NCBI GenBank assembly: GCA_949373095.1
Contig: CASIBY010000009.1
Span: forward strand, 1-64,000
Length of the DNA: 64,000 nt
Direction of reading: 5' to 3'
Source: Candidatus Poseidoniaceae archaeon
GTDB lineage: Archaea; Thermoplasmatota; Poseidoniia; Poseidoniales; Poseidoniaceae
Translations under genes and position numbers: made by a program
The notes under the pieces: generated by a model
Seen by the model: only the letters and a program-made list of their open reading frames with translations
Databases searched by the model: none
Told to the model about the DNA's origin: nothing
Shown: piece after piece, positions 8,804 to 17,077 of the stretch
Position numbering within the stretch: the stretch's first letter is position 1
How the letters are laid out: each line of letters starts with the position of its first letter

Positions 8804-9745
8804 TCAGTCCGAAGTTGAAAGGTTGTTGAAGGGATGATCTTTTGGTCGTTCGCTCCATCCTGTTGGACCGACAATGAAGACGGTATTTTTGGTTTCTACC
8901 CGTGCAGTTGCCCGCTCATCGTAGGTAATGTTGAGGATAGATGAGGAGTTGAGGCGCCCTTCGCCGAGTTTGGGGTGTTCATAGGCATAACCGGAAAGCA
9001 CATTTCCATCAATTGAGGCGTCGTTCATCACAACCTCTTCTTTGCTAACATGGCCGGTTTCGTATTGCTCAGAAGCCACCATGTATTTTGCAAGCGCACG
9101 GTAGTCAATTTCAGAATCCAGTTCAATTCCAAGGTCAACAAATTCGCTCAAAGCATCCGCAATGGGTATGGTTTCATCTCCAATTTCAGTTAGGATTCGA
9201 AGGTACTCACTAGCAAGAATCGTTCCTGTTTCCGTTGTGTCAAAGACTTGGAACGCCTCGATCAACTCTCTTTCAGCCTTGTTATCGTGCTCAATATACG
9301 CTTGAACATCCTCGGAAGACTCGTCGAGCGGCTGGATACGTCCCCTGTTGACATGGTCTTCCACATCCCCGTCATCAAAATGGATGAGGTAAGTCCCATC
9401 GGGGTTGTTCCTAGCAACTTTACCAGCATAGAAGTGACCGTAATTCTTCCAGTTAACAAAGACCCTTGCACCCTTTTCAAGCGTACGTGGCAGTTCAATT
9501 TCTGGAGAGGGCGGTGGGGCTTGCTCAACCACTTGACCGAGCATGCCCATCTGCCGAAGGGCAGTGATGACCGCTTCTGTGACGGCTGAGGGATCATTAT
9601 GGATAGTCGTGTTGCTTATCACGTCCCCAGCAATTACGGAGTCCTGCATATTGAGCTGCTGCGACCTCTGCTTTGGAGGCGCGGGAATCCATTCACTTCC
9701 CGACCACATCCATTTGCCGTCAGGGCTGATCACTGCGTCGTCCAT
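8804..9745 (-). CDS. Cytoplasmic protein with W-rich motif, Tudor-like and EF-hand-like domains
   Basis: ATG 9745 (MDDAVISPDG) is preferred to TTG 9751; length 313. Residues 7-25 hold SPDGKWMWSGSEWIPAPP, a tryptophan-rich segment like those in DUF2510-type proteins. About 95-145 is a Tudor/agenet-like barrel (GARVFVNWKNYGHFYAGKV, GTYLIHFDDGDVEDHV). About 155-225 is an EF-hand-like helical pair (IEAFQVFDTTETGTILASEY), with a first loop poor in calcium ligands. The C-terminus has a beta-rich segment. No signal peptide or TM. Tudor folds bind modified peptides or nucleic acid in eukaryotes; the role here is unknown. It is followed downstream by the hairpin at 8501-8519. Confidence 0.65.
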   Translation of the reverse strand: MDDAVISPDGKWMWSGSEWIPAPPKQRSQQLNMQDSVIAGDVISNTTIHNDPSAVTEAVITALRQMGMLGQVVEQAPPPSPEIELPRTLEKGARVFVNWKNYGHFYAGKVARNNPDGTYLIHFDDGDVEDHVNRGRIQPLDESSEDVQAYIEHDNKAERELIEAFQVFDTTETGTILASEYLRILTEIGDETIPIADALSEFVDLGIELDSEIDYRALAKYMVASEQYETGHVSKEEVVMNDASIDGNVLSGYAYEHPKLGEGRLNSSSILNITYDERATARVETKNTVFIVGPTGWSERPKDHPFNNLSTSD

Positions 9746-9847
9746 AAACAATGGAAGCGAAACAACCTAACCAAATCTTCGGTGTCTAAATTTGTAGAAA
9801 TGGAACGATTCGGAAAATAATTACGCTAAACACAATGGTGTTTCCAA

Positions 9848-10159
9848 TTACTTCTTGAGCTTACGACCAATAAGGAATCCAAGAACGAGACTGCTCCCAA
9901 ATACCCCCATTTCAATGAGACTATCCGCCAAATCCTGAGCTTGTCCAACAATGATTTCTGGCGTTTCCAACAAACCAAAGGTCAATCGGTCCCAGTCGAC
10001 GATGATGATATTTCGGGCCTCAAGCCACTTAAAAAGAACGAATTGGACAACTAAAAACAATTGAATTAACTTCGTGGCGAGTTGAAGAAGAACACCGAGG
10101 AGAACTCCAAGAATAACGCCTTGAAGTATGTTTTCTGCTAGCAATGCACTTATGTCCAT
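9848..10159 (-). CDS. FUN14-family small membrane protein
   Basis: 103 residues from ATG 10159 (MDISALLAENIL); the track adds a TTG start two codons upstream. It has two hydrophobic helices (GVILGVLLGVLLQLATKL and QLFLVVQFVLFKWLEARN), the conserved IIIVDWDRL stretch, and a C-terminal helix FGSSLVLGFLIGRKLKK. This pattern matches archaeal FUN14 proteins, relatives of mitochondrial FUNDC1. The archaeal function is unknown. It stands alone between the Tudor-like gene and the photolyase, all on the minus strand. Confidence 0.75.
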   Translation of the reverse strand: MDISALLAENILQGVILGVLLGVLLQLATKLIQLFLVVQFVLFKWLEARNIIIVDWDRLTFGLLETPEIIVGQAQDLADSLIEMGVFGSSLVLGFLIGRKLKK

Positions 10160-10234
10160 AATCAACTGCCCAACACACAGTCTTAAAATAATTCTTGAAA
10201 GAAAAATGATTTTTATTTCATCTGATGCAGAACA

Positions 10235-12205
10235 TCAAATCAACTTCGTTTGGATAGAGTAAGATGTGGGCTGTTTTGGAACGTTCTTGCGCCACAAATA
10301 CTCGCTAAGGTTCCAGACTGCGGTTTCAATTTCCGAACCATAAGTTCCCTGTTTATTGCCGATGGCATGAGAACCAAGATGACACAATAAAGAGCCATTA
10401 TCATGTTCTGCAACGGCTTGGAGAGAAGAGTTCAACGAAGAAGGGTCAATCGTCACAATACAGTCAATCTGTTGTTGATGTTCGTTCATGATTAGTGAAG
10501 GTGATGTCCCCGGATGTTCGTCTGAAATGTGTACTTCTCCCGTATTCAAAACAGGTATACCGTTAGCCAAGTATGACGCAATTTCTTGAGAAGATGAGGT
10601 CCCAATATGGTCATGAATCGCCGCTAAACGTTCTGCAAGCCACTTGGAGATTCCATCTGCTTGCAGTTCATAATCGGGTGAGTATTGCTCTGGTTGGATG
10701 ATGTAAACATTGAATCCATGGTCGTGTAGGATTCGAGCAATGAGGCATTCCAATACTCCATATCCAGCGACAAGAAATACTCCGTTTGAATTTGCTTGCA
10801 TTCTGTTAACGTGAGACTCATACCGTTCGTAGTCAAGTCGAGAAGAATGTGTGAGAAGGTCTCTCTTACGGACCACACCCATTACTGGCATTGACGGGAA
10901 AAAAGGCCGATCAAATAATCCGTGACACCACTGAACTCCAACAACGGATGAAGGGTCTCGCCCATCAAGGGCATATTTATCGTTCAACTTTTGACTTAAT
11001 TCAAGGGAGGTTTCCAAATTAGAAGTCCACAGCGGTAGAGCCTTTCCCCATGTCATCCGCAAGTTGTTGTGAAGTTCACCATGACGGAACAAAGAACGCT
11101 GACACAGATTCCATAAGTCCGAAGGAGATTTTGCATGTTCTAACTCTTCAGGATGGACTAATACTGCCCGGGGGTCATCCGAGGTACTGCGCCATGATTC
11201 TTTTGCCCAATCGGGCAAATTTGAGGGAGAGTAGGGGTCGCTAGCACTGTAAATATGGTGCCATGCATGTTCCCTAAAAACAAGAAGTTCATCCAAGTAT
11301 TTGTCAGCAGACTTTGTCCCAATTGCGGCCGCTTCCCTTGCGACTCTCATCGGAGAAAGAAAGCCGTAGTGAAACGCATACGAAAGCCGAGAGACACCTG
11401 ATGGGTCTGCAGCATTATTTCTGCGGCGTGCATACCCATTCAGTCCGTTGGAAAGGAAACCCTGCCATTTGCTAAGAGCAACACCTTCCCCACCTCGTTC
11501 CTGCCAGATTGGATGAACCGTAGGGTCGATGTTGCAGTCTCGGAGCAACCGAAAGCGTTCCTTTGGTTCTTTTAATTCGGATTGGACATCAACGGGTTCA
11601 AACGGCAAGGGGCCATTGTAAGAACGTGTTTTCACATCACACACTGGCCAAGCAGCCTGTACTCTTCGCTTTCGCATTTTTTTGGTAGCATTACGGAACT
11701 TGAATGGCCGGTCAACAGATTTTCCATATAGCGGCATAGGTATAACACAATGGCAATCCACATCAATAACCGGACAAAGGGACACCTTAGCAATAGTTCG
11801 GACCCATTTCGTCCACGGAGGAAGCGGGAACATATCGGTGATGATACAACTTGCATGTTCAGAAAAAGAGCGCATTACAGACGGACGATGCCCTTCTCGA
11901 GCCAGGTGGAATGCATAGCGTAAACCGAGTTTTGAACATCTATCGTCCATGTCTACTGCTGCATCAAGAATCATGTTGTGATGGCGCAAGGATGCGAACG
12001 GGTACCTCTCATCAAGTCCGTGATAGATGACCAAAGGAAGGTCATAGGTTGCAGCGATATGCCGACCGACATCGATTGCAGGATTCTCATCTACCCGAAA
12101 CGAAGATTTGAGCCAAACAACGACTGGACCTTGGCCAGTTGGTTGTTCGGTATCATTGAGCCTTCGCACTCGGTCGGCCAAGTGCTCCGGTAAACGGTCT
12201 ATCAT
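10235..12205 (-). CDS. phr: Class II CPD photolyase with extra C-terminal Rossmann-like domain
   Basis: Residues 1 to about 455 are a class II photolyase: an N-terminal alpha/beta antenna domain (VVVWLKSSFRVDENPA) and a FAD-binding helical domain with SYAFHYGFLSPMRVA, HNNLRMTWGKALPLWT and LNDKYALDGRDP. The enzyme would use light and FADH- to split cyclobutane pyrimidine dimers. The usual GLHDRPW segment reads GLFDRPF here. Residues about 460-640 are extra: VAGYGVLECLIARILHDHGF resembles a GxGxxE/G dinucleotide fold of the renalase/amine-oxidase type, but glycines are partly lost, so cofactor binding is doubtful. A TATA box 25 nt before ATG 12205 implies a leaderless transcript. Light-dependent repair fits a sunlit marine life style (inference). 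Confidence 0.85.
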   Translation of the reverse strand: MIDRLPEHLADRVRRLNDTEQPTGQGPVVVWLKSSFRVDENPAIDVGRHIAATYDLPLVIYHGLDERYPFASLRHHNMILDAAVDMDDRCSKLGLRYAFHLAREGHRPSVMRSFSEHASCIITDMFPLPPWTKWVRTIAKVSLCPVIDVDCHCVIPMPLYGKSVDRPFKFRNATKKMRKRRVQAAWPVCDVKTRSYNGPLPFEPVDVQSELKEPKERFRLLRDCNIDPTVHPIWQERGGEGVALSKWQGFLSNGLNGYARRRNNAADPSGVSRLSYAFHYGFLSPMRVAREAAAIGTKSADKYLDELLVFREHAWHHIYSASDPYSPSNLPDWAKESWRSTSDDPRAVLVHPEELEHAKSPSDLWNLCQRSLFRHGELHNNLRMTWGKALPLWTSNLETSLELSQKLNDKYALDGRDPSSVVGVQWCHGLFDRPFFPSMPVMGVVRKRDLLTHSSRLDYERYESHVNRMQANSNGVFLVAGYGVLECLIARILHDHGFNVYIIQPEQYSPDYELQADGISKWLAERLAAIHDHIGTSSSQEIASYLANGIPVLNTGEVHISDEHPGTSPSLIMNEHQQQIDCIVTIDPSSLNSSLQAVAEHDNGSLLCHLGSHAIGNKQGTYGSEIETAVWNLSEYLWRKNVPKQPTSYSIQTKLI

Positions 12206-12313: not shown

Positions 12314-13981
12314 TCATTCTTCTGGGAATTCATTTTCAAATGCCGTGAGAAACTCATCAATATCGATCACTCCATTTTCATCTGCATCCGATTTGTGGAA
12401 TATGTCGCGGTATTCATCATTTGAATAATGGAAGTCAAGTGCCTTGAGTGCGTTGATGAACTCCGGTACAGTGAGGTGGTTCTTTTGACCGAGGTCTGCA
12501 GCCTTGAACGCAGCAAGACGGAGCTTGTGTTCTGCTTCAGTTGGATTTGAGAACTGCATGCGGAGGCTTTGGAATGGTGTAGTACGGATTTGGCTGTGTT
12601 TTCTTCCGTAGCCATAGTAGGTTATTGTCCCAAGTGCAACAGCGGCTCCTGCACCAATGAATGCTTTACTCCCCATGAGGTAAATCAGAGCAATACCGGC
12701 AACGATACCCCAAATCTGAATCCATGGGTACAAGTGAGATTTGTATTCAGGTTTGTACCATGTTTGTGCTTGAGGAGAGCGTCGAAGTACAATGACACAG
12801 GAATTAATCATCATGAACACCATGATTTTGAAACCAGATGCCAACTTGGCAACATCTTTCACAGGCAAGTACAGTATGGCAAGTAGCATCGCTAATCCAG
12901 TAATGATAATTGGCCAATGTGGAGTTTCATATTTTGCGTTCACCGTTTCGAGAGACTGAGGGAGGAGATTGTCACGCGCCATTGCAAACAAGAAGCGCGA
13001 TGCTGCCAGGATACCAGCGAGTGCCATTGAGATCATTGTTAACACCGCCAATGCTGCTGCAAGCGCACCAACCTTAGAGCCAGCAATGACTTTGACGAAA
13101 TAATAGACTGGGTCTTCGATTGGTTCACCGTTTTGAATGTACCACATGTCGGGGAGCGCAGCCATCATCACAAAGGTCACTACACAGTAGAGAATGGTTG
13201 CAATAAGCAATGAAATCATAATTCCAAGTGGGAGATTACGTCCCGGTTCTTTCACTTCACCACCGATGGCTGCCACTTTTGTGACCCCTGCGTAAGCCAC
13301 AAACACGAATGCTGCAGTTTCTGCAACGGTTGCCAGTGACTGGTCAAAAGCACCGTTCCCACCGTTAATCGGGCGGGAAAAGTCAGTTTGCGGGTCCAAT
13401 AATGCAACGATACAGATAATACCCAAGAGCAACATTGTAACGGCAAGAATTGGTGTTTGTATGGCTTTCACCTTTTTCACACCCAAAATGTTCACAACGG
13501 TGATGAGAATAAGAGCGCCAACCGAAATCCACTGAAGATTATTTTTGGTAAGTTCAAATTCGAAGTAGGTCGTGAGTGCATACATATATGCTGAAAATCC
13601 AATCAAAGCAAAGGACGCTTTGAGGAGGAATGAAGCCCATAAACCAAGTCCGCTGATGGTTCCAAACAAGGGGCCATAGGTTCGTTCAAGGTAAACATAA
13701 GATCCACCACTCGAAGGCATAGCAGAGGCGAGTTCGGATTTAGAGAGCGCACCTGGGAGTACAACTGTTGCCGCAAGTAAGAACGCCAACCAAATACCGG
13801 GACCCATCATTTGGGCGGCAAAAGCAGGCATTACAAAAAGACCCGAACCAAGCATTGAGGACAAGGATATGATGACGATACCGGAAAGTCCAATCGTTCG
13901 TTCAATCGTTTTGGAGATGTCATCCATTACTCCTCGGACATCACCTTGGATGAGTTTACCTGCTGTGCTTTTCAAATCCAT
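12314..13981 (-). CDS. APC-family amino-acid permease with C-terminal EF-hands
   Basis: 555 residues. TM1 region SLSSMLGSGLFVMPAFAA is the APC substrate/ion-binding motif (GSGLF), followed by GGSYVYLERTYGP and about 12 TM helices to residue ~480. Family members import or exchange amino acids; the substrate is not identifiable. After TM12 there is a cytoplasmic tail with paired EF-hand helices: AADLGQKNHLTVPEFINAL (degenerate loop) and DADENGVIDIDEF, a canonical calcium-binding loop with Asp at positions 1 and 3, Asn at 5 and Glu at 12. This suggests calcium gating (inference). Its ATG follows directly on the TAA of a truncated paralogue (TTAAATG), so it may be translated by coupling to that remnant. 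Confidence 0.85.
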   Translation of the reverse strand: MDLKSTAGKLIQGDVRGVMDDISKTIERTIGLSGIVIISLSSMLGSGLFVMPAFAAQMMGPGIWLAFLLAATVVLPGALSKSELASAMPSSGGSYVYLERTYGPLFGTISGLGLWASFLLKASFALIGFSAYMYALTTYFEFELTKNNLQWISVGALILITVVNILGVKKVKAIQTPILAVTMLLLGIICIVALLDPQTDFSRPINGGNGAFDQSLATVAETAAFVFVAYAGVTKVAAIGGEVKEPGRNLPLGIMISLLIATILYCVVTFVMMAALPDMWYIQNGEPIEDPVYYFVKVIAGSKVGALAAALAVLTMISMALAGILAASRFLFAMARDNLLPQSLETVNAKYETPHWPIIITGLAMLLAILYLPVKDVAKLASGFKIMVFMMINSCVIVLRRSPQAQTWYKPEYKSHLYPWIQIWGIVAGIALIYLMGSKAFIGAGAAVALGTITYYGYGRKHSQIRTTPFQSLRMQFSNPTEAEHKLRLAAFKAADLGQKNHLTVPEFINALKALDFHYSNDEYRDIFHKSDADENGVIDIDEFLTAFENEFPEE

Positions 13982-14287
13982 TTAATCACCGGAAAAGTAC
14001 CAGTATTCTACTAATATTGGTGGGTAAACCGCCGTATCATATAGATTTGTGGCGGCAAGAAAGTATGCGGAAAAGCCAATCAAAGCAAATGCTGATTTGA
14101 GTAGAAATGAAGCCCATAGGCCCAAACCACTTAGTGTTCCAACCATCGGTCCGTAGGTTCGCTTCAAAAACACATACGAGCCACCGCTAGTAGGCATTCC
14201 TGATGCCAATTCGGACTTTGATAACGCCCCAGGAATGACAACAGAGGCGGCGCCTGATATTATGGTCTCAACAATATTTTTAGCCAT
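13982..14287 (-). pseudogene. Truncated APC permease paralogue
   Basis: 101 codons starting MAKNIVETII behind a strong GGGGGAG site. Residues 17-80 (IPGALSKSELASGMPTSGGS, LSGLGLWASFLLKSAFALIG) closely match residues ~74-140 of the downstream permease. TM1-2 are missing, and the reading ends after TM4 with a changed tail (EYWYFSGD). It is too short to be a transporter. It probably arose by tandem duplication and internal deletion. Because its ribosome site is intact and its stop abuts the next ATG, it could still act as a leader for the functional permease. Confidence 0.7.
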
Positions 14288-14453
14288 TCCACTCCCCCGA
14301 TATCCGACACAAAAAAACTGAGTAACGTGTGTTAAAAACTAATACAATATATTCTATTGCCTCATATGTGAAAACATTGGTCCGGATTCCGGTAATTCGT
14401 GCTTCGCCACAGATGCCTAACGTTTTGCAAGAAAGGTTAGGATGAAAATACCA

Positions 14454-15221
14454 TCAATACCTTACCTTCTTTCGGGTAATGGTTCTCCAAATTCGCTGAA
14501 GGGGGTCGTAATAGCGATCCACAACGCGCTCTTTGAGTTGAATGATGGCATCATCTGTGATTTGAATGCCAGCCGGACATACTTCAGTACAGCAACGGGT
14601 GATGTTGCAATACTCAATGCCAAATTCCTTTTTGATTTCTGGAATTCTGTCTTCTGTGTCAAGTGGATGCATCTCATATTGAGCCAAACGGACAAGGTTG
14701 CGGGGTCCTGCGAACCCGTCAAACAATGCATGGTCTCGCAAAACGTGACATGTATTCACACAAAGGAAGCATTCAATGCATTCTCGGAATTGTTGGACAC
14801 GGTCTGCTTCCATTTGATTGAATTCCCAGTTCATCTCATCTGGCCCGTTGATCGGCTTGATACGCTGAGCAACTTCGTAGTTCCAACTCACATCGGTAAC
14901 CAAGTCTTTGACGTGAGGAAAGGCTTTCATTGGGCGCACTTCGATGGGTTGTCCTTCTGGAGTTTCGGCAACAACATCGCTCATTCGCGTCATGCACATT
15001 AAGCGGGGTCGACCGTTAATTTCAGCCGAACATGAGCCACATTTCCCAGCCTTGCAGTTCCAGCGAACAGATAGATCTGGTTCCTGTTCGTGCTGAATTC
15101 GGTGAAGGCAATCAAGAACAACCATTCCTTCGTCGAGTTCAACACTGTACGATTCAAGACTTGCTTCTTCACCTTCGCCTCGTAGAATATTGAACGCTTG
15201 CTTCTTTCCTTTGAGTGACAT
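14454..15221 (-). CDS. sdhB: Succinate dehydrogenase iron-sulfur subunit
   Basis: 255 residues. It passes electrons from SdhA flavin to the membrane quinone site. CKAGKCGSC plus a further Cys (RLMCMTR) bind the 2Fe-2S centre, CIECFLCVNTC the 4Fe-4S centre, and CNITRCCTEVCP the 3Fe-4S centre. I start at ATG 15221 because AGGAGGTG lies 7 nt upstream; the track's GTG one codon earlier is not needed. The start overlaps the sdhA stop as TGATG, so translation is coupled. It is the last gene of sdhC-sdhA-sdhB. Confidence 0.95.
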   Translation of the reverse strand: MSLKGKKQAFNILRGEGEEASLESYSVELDEGMVVLDCLHRIQHEQEPDLSVRWNCKAGKCGSCSAEINGRPRLMCMTRMSDVVAETPEGQPIEVRPMKAFPHVKDLVTDVSWNYEVAQRIKPINGPDEMNWEFNQMEADRVQQFRECIECFLCVNTCHVLRDHALFDGFAGPRNLVRLAQYEMHPLDTEDRIPEIKKEFGIEYCNITRCCTEVCPAGIQITDDAIIQLKERVVDRYYDPLQRIWRTITRKKVRY

Positions 15222-17077
15222 CACTTTTCACCTCCTGCTTCGGCGGCTCTCTCAGCAATCATTGCTTTGACCTCGTTGAGGGCCTCCTCAAGGTCGTCGC
15301 GTATGGCTTCAACCGGTTCCTGCCGAATCTTCATTTCGCCGTCTTCCATCCAAATGATGTTGAGGGTTTTGCCCCAATAATCATCTTCTGGGGTCGGGAA
15401 ATCATCTCTTGTGTGACCGCCACGGCTTTCTTCCCGAGTCACTGCAGCAAGTGTAGCTGCGTGGGAAACATCAACCATATTGATCAGATCAAGGGCTTGG
15501 TGCCAGCCAGAATTGTACTTGCGTGAAGTTCCGGAGGAACAGGCCATTGCTCGTGCTTTGTAGGAATTCAAATCATCAAGTGCTTCCTCAAGTTCAGCCT
15601 TCGTACGAATAATGCCAACCTTAGATTGCATCATATCACGCATTTCGTCGTAAATCGCGCCTGGGTTTTCTCCACCTTCTCGCATGAGAGGGGCGAGCAT
15701 GTCGTCAATAGCGTTACCAACTTGTTCGTCATCAATAGTCGGTTGCGCCAAATCTTTGGCTCGCTTTGCAGCGAATTCACCTGCGCGCTTCCCAAACACG
15801 ATGAGGTCTGAAAGTGAGTTACCACCGAGACGGTTTGCGCCGTGAAGTCCAGAGGCGACTTCTCCACAGGCAAAGAGTCCAGAAACGGTAGTTTCTTGAG
15901 TTTCAGCATTTACAAGAACTCCACCCATGACATAGTGTGCGGTTGGTCCGACTTCCATAGGTTCCTTTGAGATGTCAACACCGGCAAGTTCCTTGAACTG
16001 ATGATGCATGCTCGGTAGTTTCTTCAAAATGGCTTCTTCGCCACGGTGAGAAATATCGAGGAATGCACCGCCGTGGGGTGAGCCACGCCCTGCTTTGACT
16101 TCAGAATTGATGGCCTTTGCAACAACGTCACGGGTGAGGAGTTCTGGTGGTCGGCGAACGGTAGCAAGTTTTCCACTCACGACTTCTTCAACCCACTGGT
16201 CCGACTCTTCGATGGTGGCAGCATGGTCGCCTGCAAACATTTCAGGAACGTAATCAAACATGAATCGGTTTCCTTCAGAATTGGTCAAGCGTCCACCTTC
16301 CCCCCGAACCCCTTCAGTTACGAGAATACCTCGTACGGAGGGCGGCCAAACCATGCCGGTTGGGTGAAATTGAACGAATTCCATGTCTCGTAGTTCTGCG
16401 CCAGCCCAAAGAGCGAGAGCATGCCCGTCTCCGGTGTATTCCCATGAGCCAGAACATACCGACCAGCAACGGGTGATACCACCAGTAGCCAAAACAACAG
16501 ATTTGCCTGAGAACGCATGAACGTCCCCGTCCACACGATTATAGGCAACGCATCCAGTGACGCGGTCTCCTTCCTTGAGCAGGGTTCGGACGGTGTATTC
16601 CATGAAGATGTCAATCCCTTCGTGAATACCTCGCTCTTGGAGCGTACGAATCAATTCGAGACCAGTTGCATCGCCAACGTGGGCGAGACGAGGGAAGGTG
16701 TGTCCACCAAAGTTACGTTGATTGATCAAATTGTTGGGTGTTCGGTCGAAAACAGCGCCCCATTGCTCTAGTTCCCTAACTCGGTCAGGGGCTTCTTTAG
16801 CATGGAATTCAGCCATTCGCCAGTTAGCAAGCCACTTACTTCCTTTCATGGTGTCGTGGAAGTGGACCTTCCACCCATCTCGTGGGTCGGCGTTTTGGAG
16901 TGCAGCCGCACATCCGCCTTCGGCCATAACCGTGTGGGCTTTACCGAGAAGGGATTTGGTGATGATAGCAGTTTTTGCTCCGCTTCGGGCTGCCTCGATA
17001 GCAGCTCTCAGTCCAGCGCCTCCGGCGCCAATGACAATAACATCGTATTCGTGGTTGGTTATTTGTTCAGTCATCAT
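15221..17077 (-). CDS. sdhA: Succinate dehydrogenase flavoprotein subunit
   Basis: 618 residues. It oxidises succinate to fumarate with covalent FAD, in the TCA cycle and respiratory chain. VIVIGAGGAGLRAAIEAA is the FAD-binding fold; the His of AHTVMAEGG is the expected flavin attachment site; the capping domain carries HPTGMVWPPSVRG and EGVRGEGG; the C-terminal helical domain is complete. The start is one of two adjacent ATGs (17077 or 17074) behind TGAGGTGAG, which overlaps the sdhC stop codon. Direction succinate to fumarate is inferred from the aerobic marine setting. Confidence 0.95.
   Translation of the reverse strand: MMTEQITNHEYDVIVIGAGGAGLRAAIEAARSGAKTAIITKSLLGKAHTVMAEGGCAAALQNADPRDGWKVHFHDTMKGSKWLANWRMAEFHAKEAPDRVRELEQWGAVFDRTPNNLINQRNFGGHTFPRLAHVGDATGLELIRTLQERGIHEGIDIFMEYTVRTLLKEGDRVTGCVAYNRVDGDVHAFSGKSVVLATGGITRCWSVCSGSWEYTGDGHALALWAGAELRDMEFVQFHPTGMVWPPSVRGILVTEGVRGEGGRLTNSEGNRFMFDYVPEMFAGDHAATIEESDQWVEEVVSGKLATVRRPPELLTRDVVAKAINSEVKAGRGSPHGGAFLDISHRGEEAILKKLPSMHHQFKELAGVDISKEPMEVGPTAHYVMGGVLVNAETQETTVSGLFACGEVASGLHGANRLGGNSLSDLIVFGKRAGEFAAKRAKDLAQPTIDDEQVGNAIDDMLAPLMREGGENPGAIYDEMRDMMQSKVGIIRTKAELEEALDDLNSYKARAMACSSGTSRKYNSGWHQALDLINMVDVSHAATLAAVTREESRGGHTRDDFPTPEDDYWGKTLNIIWMEDGEMKIRQEPVEAIRDDLEEALNEVKAMIAERAAEAGGEK

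Follow-up and report, generated by a model that had tools for sequence, protein, structure and literature searches.

Overwriting has been described for proteorhodopsin in the Poseidoniales, an order reported in the same study to be without amino-acid biosynthesis genes and dependent on external amino acids (PMC6461757). The joining of an amino-acid transporter and an EF-hand regulatory domain on one chain is known from the mitochondrial aspartate/glutamate carriers AGC1 and AGC2 (SLC25A12/13; PMC4250520). Calcium-binding domains have been reported in Poseidoniales-specific protein modules, in a paper that holds nothing further on EF-hand-tailed permeases (PMC9258230), and the open-licence literature that we searched contained no description of EF-hand-tailed permeases in archaea. 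The locus described here lies in a 64,000-nucleotide stretch of a Poseidoniaceae genome (the window); coordinates are those of the window, and every feature given by window position lies on its reverse strand. The named relatives retrieved from GTDB are Ca. Poseidonia and other Poseidoniaceae, which places the window in Marine Group II. We consider it highly probable that the locus holds an APC permease with an EF-hand tail found across the order and that the resident version (A) was overwritten by a version from another genus (B) with a stub left as the scar; the tail plausibly binds Ca2+ to tune transport.

Permease B and its EF-hand tail

Permease B is intact and 555 amino acids long (12314-13981). 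The first-pass annotation read it as an APC permease ending in a canonical calcium loop, and profile searches bear this out for both parts of the protein (AA_permease_2, E=3e-45; EF-hand_7, 35.7 bits against a cut-off of 30). AA_permease and AA_permease_2 score 155 and 133 bits against cut-offs of 27 and 24.6, which places the protein in the APC superfamily; the profile searches put the APC core at residues 31-437. The AlphaFold2 model (mean pLDDT, 79) displays a 12-helix core of the LeuT type (residues 31-466; 12584-13891) followed by two helix-loop-helix units, and its best matches in the PDB are APC transporters. The top Foldseek match is a bacterial CAT homologue (PDB 6f34/5oqt; TM 0.85 over the target), which is also the nearest solved relative by sequence (E=2e-35). 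None of the NCBIfam equivalog cut-offs is reached; the best score, to the amino acid transporter subfamily TIGR00909 (2A0306), is 212.8 bits against a curated cut-off of 556.8. Permease B is predicted to be an amino-acid transporter.

The EF-hand pair occupies residues 490-548 (12338-12514), and its EF-hand_7 match (E=1e-8, above the cut-off) puts the calcium loop far beyond chance. The modeled helices span residues 480-495/505-514 and 521-531/541-551, with short strands in the pair, and a PDB sequence search with the tail returned calmodulin chains. We called a loop canonical when it carried D at position 1, D/N/S at positions 3 and 5, G at position 6, and E at position 12. The second loop (DADENGVIDIDEF; residues 532-544; 12350-12388) is fully canonical in the window permease, as it is in 38 of the 41 homologues that have a tail; Asp1, Asp/Asn/Ser3, and Gly6 are present in all 41 and Glu12 in 39. 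The first loop is degenerate throughout and canonical in none of the 41.

The EF-hand fusion, which the first-pass annotation had proposed to look for in relatives, is present in both families of the Poseidoniales (Marine Group II). The permease profile was matched in 244 of the 293 genomes of the class, and most of the matches listed extend through the tail. Several lineages have lost it (L017, L022, L024, and L045 to L050), with a stop after about residue 470. Recoding of that stop was considered for tail-less homologues with an internal TGA, but nothing resembling an EF-hand is encoded beyond it, and the losses are genuine. Among the matches listed from other Thermoplasmatota, no related permease with an EF-hand tail was seen; these proteins end near profile position 460-486. 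Three of the four inspected Thermoplasmatota permeases (L161, L163, and L164) carry a PTS EIIA-2-like domain instead of EF-hands.

In the usual APC topology the C-terminal tail is cytoplasmic, and the EF-hand tail most likely lies on that side of the membrane. Control of transport by calcium through the tail is plausible and would be the natural reading of a genuine, conserved EF-hand fusion, while the repeated loss of the tail implies that such control is inessential for transport. It is conceivable, if doubtful, that the tail is instead a structural or Mg2+-bound domain and no calcium switch. The degenerate first loop of all 41 tailed homologues and the repeated losses point in that direction; the second loop, with its near-invariant positions 1, 3, 6, and 12, has a Ca2+-selective pattern that argues against it.

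EF-hands were also seen on other proteins. A Na+/H+ exchanger (L052:1177-2631, reverse strand; genome G030) has a C-terminal EF-hand region resembling the permease tail. A proton-translocating antiporter or complex-I-type subunit on contig C4 of this genome (L154:2-1609, reverse strand; the same as L169) has an EF-hand pair within the chain, and a ZnuA-type metal-binding protein on contig C17 (L155:418-3054, reverse strand) has several canonical EF-hand loops. In the window, a 315-aa protein (8804-9751) combines a Tudor-like domain (Tudor_3 and 53-BP1_Tudor above cut-off) with a weak EF-hand; this archaeal Tudor-like protein is 94% conserved in L077. A broader and tentative proposal is that Marine Group II archaea may gate amino-acid uptake directly with cytosolic calcium via the calmodulin-like permease tail and that the same logic may extend to the EF-hand transporters L052 and L154. 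If so, these two and the permease would constitute an archaeal calcium-regulated transport program.

The sdhB-photolyase locus and the stub

Four close relatives (L004 to L007) carry an intact A gene between SdhB and a photolyase-like gene. Both neighbors are vertically inherited in the window: SdhB (14454-15224) is 98.8-99.2% identical to relatives in amino acids, and the photolyase-like protein (10235-12205) is 90% identical to that of L077 over its full length. On the SDH side, the flanking DNA of the window and that of L077 share 91.8% nucleotide identity. A FUN14-family membrane protein (9848-10165) adjoins the photolyase-like gene.

Here, the place of A is taken by permease B and, directly upstream, a 101-codon open reading frame, the stub (13982-14287). 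The first-pass annotation described it as the remnant of a permease paralogue with a strong ribosome site and a TAA that touches the permease ATG. The last two features are as described: the 16S tail of this genome (ATCACCTCC) pairs with GGGGGAGTGG ahead of the stub, and the junction of the two frames reads TTAAATG. The remnant itself is a truncated second permease (AA_permease_2, 32.1 bits, above cut-off) except for its 3' quarter; the last ~23 codons hold no permease sequence and correspond to the noncoding 5' flank of B read in frame (13982-14054). It is not the permease's own truncated copy, as had been supposed, with 86.7% amino-acid identity to the resident type-A permease of relatives (L004) versus 75% to the adjacent permease B (over B residues 70-141; 72% over 188 nt in nucleotides).

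The A-derived part runs from the start codon to about codon 78 (14055-14287) and is 89% identical in nucleotides to L077/L075. It tracks A up to about 14045-14054, minus an in-frame internal deletion of 177 bp (59 codons) whose scar (14248-14252) is placed by the overlap of two BLASTN pieces against L077. The upstream region of A is retained together with its TATA-like element (14346-14353, aligned across L004 to L007 and the window), its ribosome site, and its start. The dS of the stub to A (0.35) is like that of SdhA to the L075 genome (0.38), which indicates that the stub was inherited vertically. Its dN/dS relative to A is about 0.15, below 1; among changes unique to the stub, 4 of 9 are nonsynonymous versus 0 of 12 in two intact A genes, small numbers in both cases.

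Elsewhere, B-like EF-hand debris (ALKALGVEYSNDEFRSIFH...) lies behind an intact A gene (L070:6832-6954, the same as G001:C12:42388-42522), and L069 has a similar noncoding residue behind A. These probably record an earlier, separate import of B at the same locus. One single-contig genome (CM001443.1, G073; L171 and L124) encodes A-like and B-like EF-hand permeases at separate loci.

Origin of permease B in another genus

In a scan of GTDB, B turned up in L061 to L068 with identities of 83-97%; there it is surrounded by panB-MEMO/RidA on one side and an Ig-like protein on the other, an arrangement (panB-MEMO/RidA-permease-Ig-like) that is the native permease slot family-wide. L061, L062, and L063 come from genomes G080, G124, and G182, members of another genus of the family (g16). 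The window permease is 97% identical in amino acids to that of L061, and together with 73 nt upstream it matches L061 at 94.0% over 1742 bp, to the stop codon, with the match ending at both junctions. SdhA is only 77% identical in nucleotides to that of the same genome, and MEMO/RidA 72%. This disparity between B with its flank and SdhA shows that B overwrote A by recombination across genera: a resident gene has been replaced at the same locus by the copy of another lineage. Synonymous divergence tells the same story, with a dS of 0.23 between B and L061, 2.86 between SdhA and the genome of L063 (same donor group), and 0.38-0.80 between SdhA genes inside the group that shares the SDH locus. 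The phylogenetic tree groups the window permease with the native copies of L061 to L065, with moderate support at that fork, and the donor would be closely related to L061/L062.

The ~70 nt before B in L061 to L065 are collinear with the final stretch of the stub (CCACAAAYCTATATGAT...GGTGATTAAATG) and bring a TATA-like element (TATATGAT) and a Shine-Dalgarno motif, GGTGAT, that also pairs with the 16S tail of this genome (-8.0 kcal/mol). None of these five native loci has a permease fragment before B. The codon before the B start varies among them, being TAA in L062 and L063, TGA in L064 and L065, and not a stop in L061.

The 5' junction (14045-14054) is a microhomology of about 10 nt (CGCCACAAAT), the only overlap between the BLASTN pieces that match L077 and L061/L062. 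At the 3' junction (12314-12324), B-like sequence gives way to resident-like sequence at GAAGA.TGA in an alignment of the window, L061 to L063, L077, and L075. Both junctions are readable because the stub of the displaced A persists. In this genome, no permease, intact or decayed, was found in the native slot next to MEMO/RidA, which suggests that A had relocated to the SDH locus in the subgroup of the window before B arrived. The assembly is metagenome-like (1.87 Mb, 26 contigs, 82% complete), and a second permease copy may reside elsewhere in the genome.

Alternative readings of the stub

The first-pass annotation suggested that the remnant now serves as a translation leader and tied this to its conservation in close relatives. 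Ribosomes loaded at the stub site would stop at the TAA and reinitiate at the permease ATG, a scheme to which the strong Shine-Dalgarno, the 101-codon open frame, the TAA directly before the ATG, and the retained promoter of A lend some appeal. The stub is absent, however, from every one of the 29 further genomes searched within the genus, an absence that the annotation itself had named as refuting, and from the region upstream of B at its native locus; no other genome searched has it. TTAAATG and GGTGAT preexist in L062/L063 with no gene running into them, and the TAAATG, the GGTGAT, and the TATA-like box of the window came with the flank of B. A stop ahead of B is not conserved among the native loci, B has a ribosome site and a promoter-like element of its own, and the stub has gathered nonsynonymous changes. 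We regard an established leader as improbable and favor the scar, although the stub may have been co-opted as a leader recently, since its frame is still open, its strong ribosome site is kept, and its dN/dS is low.

A tandem duplication whose upstream copy then decayed is very unlikely. Two homologous copies do stand side by side, and the debris behind A in L070 and L069 shows that the two versions shared the sdhB-photolyase locus elsewhere; but the stub is nearer to the A of other species than to its neighbor, an old duplicate would have diverged much further from L061 than permease B has, and the match to L061 includes noncoding flank and ends sharply. Similarity and dS together contradict the tandem duplicate. 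Reciprocal loss from an ancestral A-B tandem, a candidate prompted by B-like debris behind A in L007/L070, was rejected for this genome because B is too young (0.23 versus 0.38-0.80 for SdhA). An assembly chimera of two co-occurring marine archaea would suit a fragmented, incomplete metagenome-like assembly but has very little probability, since the same species resumes on both sides (SdhB, 99%, and the photolyase-like protein, 90%, to L077), B differs by 3% from each of the known donors, and misjoining leaves the 177-bp deletion inside the stub unexplained.

A model of the replacement and comparison with known systems

On this reading, an APC amino-acid transporter with an EF-hand tail occurs throughout the order, and the window permease is its version at this locus. 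We infer, as the simplest account, that a single import of B replaced A at the sdhB-photolyase locus. The donor would belong to a different genus of this family, and B would have come with a core promoter and a ribosome site that were its own. One crossover would have fallen at the ~10-nt microhomology inside A and the other in the tail end that A and B have in common. Of A, the scar would keep the promoter, the ribosome site, and the opening ~78 codons, with 59 codons deleted inside; by chance, its 101-codon frame would continue into the flank of B until the TAA. Permease B should be expressed chiefly from the promoter and Shine-Dalgarno that it brought along. Its tail would be cytoplasmic, with the second loop most likely binding one divalent ion (Ca2+) and tuning transport. 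A search of IMG/VR for a viral vehicle returned no relative and no junction.

The significance is twofold. A conserved calmodulin-like loop on an amino-acid permease of abundant surface-ocean archaea makes calcium control of archaeal transport directly testable. The scar, known from one genome, is a readable record of overwriting between genera, in which both crossovers, the promoter that came with B, and what is left of A can be placed to within about 10 nt.

Among solved structures, the closest relative of permease B is GkApcT, the bacterial CAT homologue (PDB 5oqt and 6f34), which shares the APC superfamily and about 25% identity but is without an EF-hand tail. The Thermoplasmatota permeases L161, L163, and L164 share a related core and have a cytoplasmic-type domain at the same C-terminal place, which is a regulatory-type PTS domain rather than EF-hands. 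AGC1 and AGC2 are similar in design, but their transporter belongs to the unrelated SLC25 family, their eight EF-hands are N-terminal, and they are proteins of eukaryotic mitochondria. In the overwriting of proteorhodopsin in Ca. Poseidoniales, as here, a copy gained by horizontal transfer takes over from the single resident one at the same genomic position (PMC6461757). The present case is in the same order and supports the idea proposed there, but the gene is a permease, a stub of the displaced gene persists, and the incoming gene carried a core promoter with it.
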